Assembly (NCBI GenBank): GCA_900696645.1
Contig: CAADGV010000004.1
Coordinates: 1 to 64,000 of the forward strand
Reading direction: 5' to 3'
Source of the DNA: an uncultured Chlorobiota bacterium
GTDB lineage: Bacteria > Bacteroidota > Ignavibacteria > UBA10030 > UBA6906
Length of the DNA stretch: 64,000 nt
Part shown: positions 32,473 to 35,481 of the stretch, in pieces
How the letters are laid out: each line of letters starts with the position of its first letter
Numbering within the stretch: position 1 is the stretch's first letter
Notes under the pieces: model-generated
Told to the model about the DNA's origin: nothing
Databases searched by the model: none
The model's input: the letters and a program-made list of their open reading frames with translations, nothing else
Position numbers and translations under genes: made by a program

Positions 32473-32508
32473 ATGCCCGTTTCCTTTTTCAGGGAACGGG
32501 CATTTTCT
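32473..32508 (+). terminator. Terminator of the rpsF-rpsR-rplI operon
   Basis: ATGCCCGTTTCC (32473-32484) and GGGAACGGGCAT (32492-32503) form a 12-base-pair stem with one G-U pair, followed by a short T-run. Confidence 0.8.
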
Positions 32509-32598: not shown

Positions 32599-33552
32599 AT
32601 GCCGGTGTTTCCGAAGCCGTCGTTCCCGTTCGACTTCGATGTGCAGCAGGAGATTCAACGCCTGCACAAGCACAGGCAATCCCGCGCCATACCACAGAAG
32701 AAGAACACACGTCTGCTTGTCGCAACATGGAACGTTGCCAATTTCGGCGCGCAGTTGCGGCAGGATGCACATCTCGACCTCATCGCAGAAATCATCAGTT
32801 GGTTCGATATCGTCGCCCTTCAGGAGTGCAGGGAGAACTACGGGCATCTCTTTGACGTGCACGCCAAGCTCCCCGCTTCGTATCGCGTGATCATGTCCGA
32901 CGTTGCCGGCAACAATGAACGAAAGGCATTCCTCTACAACAGCAGAAAACTCAAACCGCTGGAAGAAATCGGCGAGATCGCATTTCCGCCATCCGACTAC
33001 AAGAACGTCAAGCTCCCCGGCGTCACCGAATTGTTCAACGGTTTCGACCGAACGCCGTACTTCGCAACATTCCAAGCGGGGAACACCTCGTTTGTCTTTG
33101 CCAACGTCCATCTCTACTACGGAGATACCGGCAAGAAATCCATCGAGCGCCGTTCGTTGGAGACATTCGCCGTTGCGCGCTGGGCGGACAAGCGGAACAG
33201 AAGTAATTTTTCATTCACCCGTGAACTTGTAGCATTGGGTGACTTCAATCTGCCGAAAGTCCATCCCGATGATCCCATCTTCAAAGCCCTGACAAAGCTC
33301 GGGCTTGAACTTCCGAATCACTCTTCGCAGATCGCCTCCAATCTTGCCAACGATGCCTACTACGATCAGATAGCTGTTCTCCCGAAAACAACTCAGCACA
33401 CGTTCTCCGGCAACAAAGGTGTGTTTGATTTCGATACCGTTCTTTTTCCCGACCTGTGGGGGAACGGAAAGAACAAAAAGAATTTCGACGCGTATTTGCG
33501 CTATTATATTTCCGACCACCGTCCGATGTGGATGGAATTCAAGATTGGATAG
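32599..33552 (+). CDS. Endonuclease/exonuclease/phosphatase-fold protein
   Basis: The 317-residue protein has the DNase I-like EEP fold. Visible motifs are ATWNVANFG near residue 42 (metal-binding Asn), VALQECRE near 75 (Glu ligand), FANVHLYYG, ALGDFNLPK (Asp-x-Asn) and the terminal SDHRPMWMEF (Asp-His pair). All catalytic positions are present, so it should hydrolyse a phosphodiester or phosphomonoester. It has no signal peptide and so is predicted cytoplasmic. AAAAGGAA precedes the ATG. It is followed after 42 bases by a membrane protein and then an endolysin-like amidase on the same strand. Confidence 0.85.
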   Translation: MPVFPKPSFPFDFDVQQEIQRLHKHRQSRAIPQKKNTRLLVATWNVANFGAQLRQDAHLDLIAEIISWFDIVALQECRENYGHLFDVHAKLPASYRVIMSDVAGNNERKAFLYNSRKLKPLEEIGEIAFPPSDYKNVKLPGVTELFNGFDRTPYFATFQAGNTSFVFANVHLYYGDTGKKSIERRSLETFAVARWADKRNRSNFSFTRELVALGDFNLPKVHPDDPIFKALTKLGLELPNHSSQIASNLANDAYYDQIAVLPKTTQHTFSGNKGVFDFDTVLFPDLWGNGKNKKNFDAYLRYYISDHRPMWMEFKIG

Positions 33553-33594
33553 TATCAACCCTTTTCCCCACACAATGATGTAAGGAGAAACGTC

Positions 33595-34665
33595 ATGTTC
33601 GACCTTATCGACAGTCTCATTGCCACCATTACCGTCGTGTTGCTGTTGAGCCTGATTGTTCAATCCATCCAGCAAATCGCCAAGCAGGTATTCCACATGA
33701 AGTCAAAACTGATGGAGCGTGAATTGATGGCGTTGCTGACAAACACGCCGTACAAGCGGACGTGGAAGCCTCAGGCTATGCAGTTCACGGAGGCCGCCGA
33801 GCAGCATCCTGAAGCGAAGCAGCTTGTTGACAAGATTCGGAACAAGCTTTCCGGGTTCGGCTACAACGATGCCGGCATGCTGGAGGGAATGAACAAGGAT
33901 ACATTCTTCAGAATTGCAGGCGATCTGTTCGACACTGCCGAGCTTGAGCAGCGCGACCGTTCGTCTCTCTCACAATCCGAGAAAGATGAAATAGAGAAGA
34001 AAGCCCGATTCCTGGAAAAGGCCCGCTGGGATATCGAGCAATGGTATGAACTTACGATGACGTCGTTCAAAGATCACTACGAACGGCGCATGAAGATGTG
34101 GGCGTTTCTGATGGGAGCTGCGGTTGTTGTGTGGCTGAATGCGAATATCTTCGACATCTACAAAGAATTCAGCACAAACCGCGTTCTGCGGGATTCCGCC
34201 GTGAAAATCGGAGAGCGCCTTGCGGCAACGCCGAAGGATTCTCTCATTGTAGCAAAGTTGGCCGACGGCAGTGACTCCGTGCAGTACGTTCCCGACAGTC
34301 TTGCCTTCAAGGCGATTCAAACACACATCAAGTTCATCGACTCGACAGTGAATGCCCAGTCGTTCCAGCTTATGCGTTGGAATACAGCATCGGGAACGCC
34401 GCTAAGCTGGAATATGGGAGTCATCTTCTCAGCAATTTGGGGAAACATACTCGGCTGGCTTGGTATGACGCTGCTCGTTGGACTGGGCGCGCCATTCTGG
34501 TATGATATCCTGAAAACCATCGTCGGCCTTAAGGAACGCGCTCGCGGCACTGTACAAGGCGGCGGACAAAGCAGCAGTAATATCGAGCGGGAGAGATTGA
34601 CGCAGGAAGGTCGAACTCCTCCACCGCCTCAGCCGGCAAGCGGTGAAACTCCGGCGTACGGCTAA
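33595..34665 (+). CDS. Membrane protein of unknown function
   Basis: The 356-residue protein starts with a hydrophobic helix (residues 5-30), followed by a soluble, charged helical region of about 130 residues. A second membrane helix lies near 166-187 (MWAFLMGAAVVVWLNANIF), then a soluble loop of about 95 residues, then hydrophobic segments at 279-310 ending in VGLGAPFWYDILKTI. The tail is Gly/Ser/Pro-rich. From memory, a GAPFWxDxL end appears in other uncharacterised membrane proteins. AAGGAG precedes the ATG. It sits between a nuclease-fold gene and an amidase gene with short gaps of 42 and 18 bases. Confidence 0.75.
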   Translation: MFDLIDSLIATITVVLLLSLIVQSIQQIAKQVFHMKSKLMERELMALLTNTPYKRTWKPQAMQFTEAAEQHPEAKQLVDKIRNKLSGFGYNDAGMLEGMNKDTFFRIAGDLFDTAELEQRDRSSLSQSEKDEIEKKARFLEKARWDIEQWYELTMTSFKDHYERRMKMWAFLMGAAVVVWLNANIFDIYKEFSTNRVLRDSAVKIGERLAATPKDSLIVAKLADGSDSVQYVPDSLAFKAIQTHIKFIDSTVNAQSFQLMRWNTASGTPLSWNMGVIFSAIWGNILGWLGMTLLVGLGAPFWYDILKTIVGLKERARGTVQGGGQSSSNIERERLTQEGRTPPPPQPASGETPAYG

Positions 34666-34683
34666 TCAGAAAGGAAGACGACC

Positions 34684-35481
34684 ATGGCATTCAAAGAGAA
34701 ATACTCCATCACGCCGCGTTATCTTACGCCCAATACAAAACGCCGCTCGGGCTTGAAAATGTCGCCCGGCGTGAAGTTCATTGTGGCGCACGATACCGGC
34801 AACCCGAACTCCACTGCAAACGGCAACGTGCGCTACTACGAGAACTCGCGCAACGAAATGAGCGCATCCGCTCATCTTTTTGTGGATGATAGAGAGATCA
34901 TCGAATGCGTTCCGGCACTGACAGGCCCGCCGGAAAAGGCCTGGCACGTACTTTACGGCGTTCCGACGGACAATCAGTTGTTCGGCTTCAACGCAAACGA
35001 TGCAGCGGTCGGAGTCGAGTATTGCTACGGCACCAATATCAATGCGGATGAGGCATACGCCCGATTCGTGTGGGTGATGGCATTCATCTGTTACAAGTTC
35101 GAGCTGGATCCGCGAAAGTCCGTTGTGGGACATTTCTTTCTCGACCCGAACAGAAAAACCGACCCCGTGACGGGTCTTGCTCGCAGCCGCCGGACGTATG
35201 AACAACTTCTGGAGCACGTCGTTAAGGAATATGAAGAGTGTACGAAAACGGAACTTCCCGCCATTTCTCTTCCTATAAAGAAAGGGGGGACGGTTAAAGC
35301 GACCGTCCGATTGAATGTCCGAAAGGGAGAGCCGAACACAATTGCGCCGGTCGTTCAGTCAATTGATCCGGGAACGACTCTCGATTATGCATCTTCAGTG
35401 CTCGGGCAATCCATCAACGGTAACCCGAAATGGTACAAGGACCCGAACGGGAATTACTTCTGGAGCGGCGGTGTAGTCTGA
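34684..35481 (+). CDS. Endolysin-like N-acetylmuramoyl-L-alanine amidase with SH3-like domain
   Basis: Residues 30-180 form an amidase_2 domain: zinc His in FIVAHDTGNPNSTANGNV, SASAHLFVDDREIIECVP, GVEYCYGTNINADEAY, and VVGHFFLDPNRKTDP with the second zinc His and the catalytic Lys. This is the arrangement of phage and Bacillus CwlA-type amidases. The C-terminal 65 residues resemble an SH3-type domain (VRLNVRKGEPN). No signal peptide is visible, as in phage endolysins that need a holin or cell lysis to reach peptidoglycan. GGAAG precedes the ATG. It is the last gene of the nuclease-membrane-amidase trio. Confidence 0.88.
   Translation: MAFKEKYSITPRYLTPNTKRRSGLKMSPGVKFIVAHDTGNPNSTANGNVRYYENSRNEMSASAHLFVDDREIIECVPALTGPPEKAWHVLYGVPTDNQLFGFNANDAAVGVEYCYGTNINADEAYARFVWVMAFICYKFELDPRKSVVGHFFLDPNRKTDPVTGLARSRRTYEQLLEHVVKEYEECTKTELPAISLPIKKGGTVKATVRLNVRKGEPNTIAPVVQSIDPGTTLDYASSVLGQSINGNPKWYKDPNGNYFWSGGVV

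Follow-up and report, generated by a model that had tools for sequence, protein, structure and literature searches.

A nuclease, membrane protein and endolysin-like amidase gene trio as one version of a candidate exchangeable-enzyme cassette

The three genes described here encode an EEP nuclease-like protein (NUC), a membrane protein (MEM) and an endolysin-like amidase (AMI). Sequence comparison indicates that they represent one variant of a broader arrangement, with a constant membrane protein and exchanged enzymes, a pattern missed by an earlier sequence-only reading of the window (the whole 64,000-nucleotide stretch of DNA analysed). Our favoured account, held tentatively and at somewhat less than an even chance, is that they form a membrane-scaffolded hydrolase cassette whose cytosolic enzymes dock on MEM and which serves regulated self-killing, either anti-phage or social. 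A modular scaffolded effector cassette of this kind would fit the constancy of MEM, the swapping of signal-free enzymes, a MEM C-terminus to which enzymes are fused or would dock, the patchy distribution and the insertion into a housekeeping operon. The positions of the genes and their features are collected in Table 1.

Table 1. Trio genes and associated sequence features in the window.
Feature	Position	Strand	Description
Terminator-like hairpin, T-rich tail	32473..32503	+	3' of rplI; 13-bp stem, consensus scan
NUC gene	32599..33552	+	complete ORF, 317 aa; EEP (DNase I/TDP2-fold) phosphoesterase
MEM gene	33595..34665	+	complete ORF, 356 aa; predicted three-TM inner-membrane protein, wide unnamed family
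MEM TM1	33604..33660	+	residues 4-22; hydropathy
MEM TM2	34096..34152	+	residues 168-186; invariant Y..R.M..W stretch precedes; alignment and hydropathy
MEM TM3	34420..34506	+	~residues 276-304; contains family motif LGAPFWYD; alignments and hydropathy
MEM C-terminal tail	34501..34662	+	residues 303-356; predicted cytosolic; Q/S/P-rich; ends TPAYG; proposed docking tail
AMI gene	34684..35481	+	complete ORF; N-acetylmuramoyl-L-alanine amidase (Amidase_2) with C-terminal SH3-like domain
AMI SH3-like domain	35284..35478	+	~residues 201-265, ...NPKWYKDPNGNYFWSGGVV; putative receptor for MEM tail

The three genes are complete and, as the sequence-only reading had described, tightly packed, with gaps of 42 nt (NUC-MEM) and 18 nt (MEM-AMI), and a purine-rich ribosome-binding-like sequence lies upstream of the ATG in all three. 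Its description of the surroundings was also accurate: the neighbours are housekeeping genes, ribosomal ones among them, and the flanks are free of phage genes. The order at the site is prs-ctc-pth-rpsF-rpsR-rplI, the trio, korA-korB, and the predicted hairpin with its T-rich tail after rplI suggests that the trio is transcribed as a separate unit.

Judging by gene order among relatives, the trio is an insertion at a single site, between rplI and korA, in the genus of the window, since nine genomes from its family have prs-ctc-pth-rpsF-rpsR-rplI-korA running on without it. In eight of these rplI and korA are nearly adjacent, and in the ninth (G007) the matches to the two genes lie at most about 367 nt apart, which is too short for the trio. 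No target-site repeats of 9 nt or more were found between the two gaps that flank the insertion. The G+C content of the trio equals that of the neighbouring genes and thus shows no obvious sign of a recent acquisition. A congener (G001) carries the trio at the same place with 95, 90 and 92 % identity; no copy was found in the genome of G002, whose contig starts just upstream of korA and so cuts off the site. One outcome that would have told against the sequence-only reading, three genes that never co-occur elsewhere, did not come about: a search for the same order recovered it in G001 and, over contig breaks, in two other genera (G053 and G073), where contig ends split each locus and the joined order is presumed. 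Because the order recurs in this way, the trio is not a chance arrangement.

The first gene of this order is the variable one. The first-slot EEPs L042_10 and L038_4 (G053/G073 loci) and L034_4 (G047, in which no AMI was found) have no significant similarity to NUC, and the comparison of NUC, L034_4/L038_4 and L042_10 finds none among the three, so that non-orthologous EEPs of unrelated subfamilies occupy the slot. On these alignments the EEP slot is conserved and the gene filling it is not. A NUC relative (43 %) also lies about 8 kb from MEM in G041.

NUC itself is an EEP superfamily member, as proposed, with its metal residues intact: it matches Exo_endo_phos (PF03372) at 26.8 bits against a curated Pfam cut-off of 24.5 and has the N/E/H/D-N/D-H set of catalytic-type residues (N45, E76, H171, D215/N217, D306/H307). 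A Foldseek search with the NUC model (pLDDT 63, moderate) gave TDP2 as the top match followed by DNase I, to which the sequence is also weakly matched. NUC has the fold and catalytic-type residues of the MnuA membrane nuclease and DNase I but differs from the MnuA family, its best NCBIfam match, in a weak score (45.9 bits against a cut-off of 185) and in lacking a signal peptide or TM segment. Hydropathy finds no hydrophobic segment of any kind, and NUC is probably cytosolic. EEP enzymes also act on RNA, lipids and nucleotides; we regard NUC as a putative DNase, the fold and catalytic-type residues supporting the phosphoesterase class.

The claim of an unsecreted, endolysin-like amidase was likewise borne out. 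AMI belongs to Amidase_2 (PF01510, 7e-16, 59.2 bits against a Pfam cut-off of 26), with the zinc/catalytic-type residues H36, E112, H150 and D160, and it matches PHROG endolysins (6.8e-36); no signal peptide or N-terminal hydrophobic segment is seen in its hydropathy profile. Its nearest relative is the endolysin of Brevibacillus phage Sundance (55 % identity over 196 aa), and AMI alone of the trio is probably of phage-related ancestry. The C-terminal SH3-like domain went unmentioned in the earlier reading, and homologous domains are present on subtilases and a GH25 lysozyme that adjoin other MEM genes. The sole other Amidase_2 match in the genome of the window (L156, G000:C7:111504-111725) sits among phage-looking genes that are Mu-like by eye.

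MEM has three hydrophobic segments, in agreement with the several helices first noted. Lysine and arginine are absent before TM1 and present after TM1 and before TM2, from which we infer, by the positive-inside rule, an external N-terminus and a cytosolic C-terminal tail. The structure model is poor (pLDDT 50) and shows, at low confidence, an all-helix protein with three TM segments. Alignments of the near subfamily (profile A1) and of the wide family (A2) share a signature that the MEM of the window carries, namely an N-terminal TM, Y-x-R/K before TM2, an Asn in TM2 and a C-terminal LGAPFW[FY]D segment, with LGAPFWFDLL as the motif of the wide family. MEM was found in 13 of 100 near relatives, some copies being fragments, and with the broader profile in 29 of 395 genomes across the phylum. 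The whole-genome searches covered the phylum of the window and other phyla were sampled via plasmid records; in all, the family spans Bacteroidota, Pseudomonadota, Cyanobacteriota and Actinomycetota, with relatives on replicons of Nostoc, Kovacikia, Caballeronia, Rhizobium, Agrobacterium, Paracoccus, Vitreoscilla, Hymenobacter and Nonomuraea. A degenerate-pattern scan of genome contigs for distant relatives recovered nothing beyond the near subfamily, the patterns being narrow. MEM remnants with several stop codons occur at G091:C163 and G089:C114, suggesting gene turnover. On plasmids of Rhizobium, Agrobacterium and Paracoccus (L111, L112, L113), MEM relatives belong to a conserved cluster in which they follow a vanadium-dependent haloperoxidase.

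No established identity could be given to MEM. Pfam offered no credible family for 25 members, MEM profiles found no relative in the PDB, PHROGs and PADLOC gave no credible match to the window copy, and NCBIfam returned a sub-threshold match to that copy. A literature search, with most subscription journals outside its reach, found no description of the family, and an earlier description is possible. The other outcome that would have counted against the sequence-only reading, a MEM from an unrelated housekeeping family, did not materialise, as MEM falls in no known family of that kind. A holin-type pore was rejected: MEM is 356 aa long with large soluble parts and has no relative in PHROGs or phage records and no confirmed one in viral contigs, so the idea of a holin-like phage-lysis partner is unsupported.

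What recurs around MEM is a changing set of enzymes. Directly downstream lies an amidase in L037, L039, L086 (Caballeronia) and L087 (Hymenobacter), a subtilase in L090, L100 and L102, and a GH25 lysozyme in L123. Patatins stand beside MEM in L036, L088 (Rhizobium), L103 (judged from the sequence start) and L107, and other loci have EEPs, a papain-like peptidase (L126) or a SIR2-TPR protein (L121). Among 94 MEM neighbours, the best 25 of 86 Pfam families are headed by Amidase_2 (6), Peptidase_S8 (5), PG_binding_1 (4) and Patatin (4); no STAND NTPase was found in the window or recurs among the families listed. With the exception of L032_5, representative partner enzymes have no N-terminal signal-like or TM segment by hydropathy. 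In L120 the C-terminus of MEM is fused to Lipase_3 (3e-24), and in L119 to a domain with a weak Trypsin_2 match (0.0015, below the Pfam cut-off); the C-terminal extension of L108_8, for which Pfam gave no match, resembles that of L119 by eye only. Several MEM loci (for example L091, L093, L096, L097, L101 and L106) have no obvious hydrolase neighbour, and therefore MEM has some function without hydrolases.

A secreted protein, possibly of the outer membrane, is a further product of many cassettes; it belongs to the f3 (~640-890 aa) or fam3 (~350 aa) family, and a purely cytosolic model leaves it unexplained. The f3 family, with the motif ADGLAKFLV.R...EL..AFF, occurs at L102:9466-11514, L123:10459-12450, L090:4299-6227 and in L100, L108 and L119; when two f3-type proteins were compared with Pfam, one had no match and one a weak match to DUF5685. 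In other genomes fam8 and fam3 genes come after a MEM-amidase pair. In the genome of the window, away from the trio (L155:7752-10427, G000 contig C14), three genes in a row encode a small protein of the fam8 type, a secreted one of the fam3 type and a TIR-like protein.

The proposed docking of enzymes on MEM comes from a correspondence between its tail and the SH3-like domain, which is common to AMI, the subtilases L100 and L102 and the GH25 protein L123_8, all adjacent to MEM, and to a further subtilase-like protein (L123_9). MEM tails that end in -A[VY]G extend 43-54 residues beyond the GAPFW motif, as against 14-42 for most other tails. All six MEMs with this ending adjoin an SH3 enzyme, as do 7 of 52 MEMs overall (hypergeometric 3.4e-7, uncorrected for kinship), a value that is descriptive, the motif having been found in the same sequences and several of these being kin. 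The exception is L100, where an SH3-subtilase accompanies a short tail ending in -KTG. The MEM of G073, which lay outside the 52 and whose tail was read later, in a different frame at the start of a contig, ends in -TPPFG just before an SH3-amidase, a small out-of-sample agreement with the rule. The amidases of L086/L087 and the subtilase of L090 likewise come after MEMs with longer tails (-LPAAxGGV and -KPIG, respectively), and L118 has a long tail and no evident partner. An SH3 profile (A3) matched 6 of 395 genomes, in 5 of them beside MEM and in the sixth (G027) as a broken amidase fragment without MEM; since its rows derive partly from MEM neighbourhoods, this result speaks for specificity and not for an unbiased association. 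The MEM of the window, with its long tail ending in -[VYF]G and an adjacent SH3-like enzyme, belongs to the proposed docking class by sequence.

In the model that we build on these observations, MEM would be the constant part, a three-TM inner-membrane protein with a cytosolic C-terminal tail, and the signal-peptide-free enzymes the exchangeable part. The SH3-like domain of AMI would bind the MEM tail (-TPAYG), so that the amidase is kept at the inner face of the membrane, with the EEP nuclease encoded together with it. Some trigger would act on MEM and lead to a breach of the membrane or a change in the state of MEM; AMI could then reach the peptidoglycan while NUC degrades nucleic acid, and lysis together with DNA destruction would amount to regulated self-killing. 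Self-killing is the role that we favour, by analogy: an amidase kept in the cytosol does no damage as long as it has not crossed the membrane, and a nuclease is encoded alongside. The topology, the tail-SH3 binding, the membrane opening, the killing and the trigger are the conjectural parts of this model, and the present analysis found no regulator or trigger.

The sequence-only reading had offered a self-lysis, DNA-release or defence module. Part of this stands, in that the trio belongs to a recurrent unit for which self-lysis with DNA destruction is the best functional guess; a defence-island setting is unsupported. In PADLOC-DB 2.0 none of the trio proteins matched a family at E 1 or better, and the recurrent ones among the best 25 families matched by the 94 MEM neighbours are all generic models (phospholipase, subtilase, SIR2-type, IetS and CARF). 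DpdF is among the strong single matches near MEM, its member untraced. A known defence system or island was accordingly rejected as the identity of the trio and its relatives.

The main rival to self-killing, and one that we consider unlikely, is effector delivery or antagonism: the hydrolases would serve as toxins against other bacteria, and their movement or loading would fall to MEM together with the secreted partner. With its amidase, GH25, GH19, patatin, nuclease and protease members, the partner set of MEM resembles sets of antibacterial effectors; the f3/fam3 proteins in many cassettes, the contractile tail-sheath genes beside MEM in L125/L126 and a Pvc16_N protein in the neighbour set point the same way. 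However, no immunity gene was recognised, the cassette of the window lacks a secreted partner (its fam3 relative being on another contig), and the contractile genes are confined to one genus. In that genus (G299, G318), MEM adjoins both tail-sheath and tube genes, and a link to an injection system is unproved. Somewhat less probable again is constitutive envelope maintenance, with MEM positioning wall and lipid enzymes for ordinary remodelling. Several partners are such enzymes, the G+C match points to long residence and two species of the genus retain the trio, but so patchy a family, with the site empty in family members, is not what ordinary remodelling would lead one to expect, and the nuclease, SIR2-like and protease partners and the want of signal peptides fit it poorly.

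The kinship of AMI to the Sundance and PHROG endolysins raises the prospect of a domesticated phage lysis cassette, holin plus endolysin, to which a nuclease was added. We find this improbable, as MEM differs from holins in both size and domain make-up, no phage relative or confirmed viral one was found for it, its relatives pair with non-lysin enzymes and no phage genes lie nearby. That the neighbours are unrelated and have no joint function is very improbable: some MEM genes do stand alone, but the recurrent order, EEP swapping, C-terminal fusions and tail/SH3 co-occurrence all argue for a connection.

The self-killing account can be extended to an undescribed, cross-phylum class of regulated death systems, in which MEM is a universal dock whose -[AP][VYF]G tail captures any SH3-bearing cytosolic hydrolase and fusion to lipase or trypsin-like domains elsewhere is the equivalent; we put this forward as a doubtful proposition, though not a far-fetched one. 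If it were true, an unannotated membrane-protein family in at least four bacterial phyla would stand at the centre of a plug-in effector system, and cassette enzymes could be found and assigned by a simple sequence test, the tail/SH3 rule. Endolysin-type enzymes of cellular genomes would be tied to regulated cell death, and many operons of a hypothetical protein and a hydrolase would become interpretable. The tail-SH3 prediction is specific and cheaply testable even if the killing role is wrong.

Compared with known systems, the trio resembles a phage holin-endolysin cassette in that a membrane protein gene is followed by one for an unsecreted endolysin-type amidase. It departs from such a cassette in the added nuclease, in a 356-aa, three-TM MEM with large soluble parts for which no phage relative was found, in the lack of linkage to phage genes and in the proteases, lipases and other enzymes that MEM relatives use in place of a lysin. 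Bacterial gasdermin operons, in which a membrane-acting protein for cell suicide is encoded beside hydrolases, are similar in layout, whereas the low-confidence model of MEM is all helix with three TM segments and MEM has no PADLOC match. In EAD1 systems, as presented under System 3 of an eLife 2020 article (PMC7159879), a small adaptor domain links exchangeable effectors that include lysozyme- and papain-like peptidoglycan enzymes. The MEM cassettes would be alike in joining swappable effectors through a shared small adaptor, but here the adaptor would be SH3-like and the hub a membrane protein.
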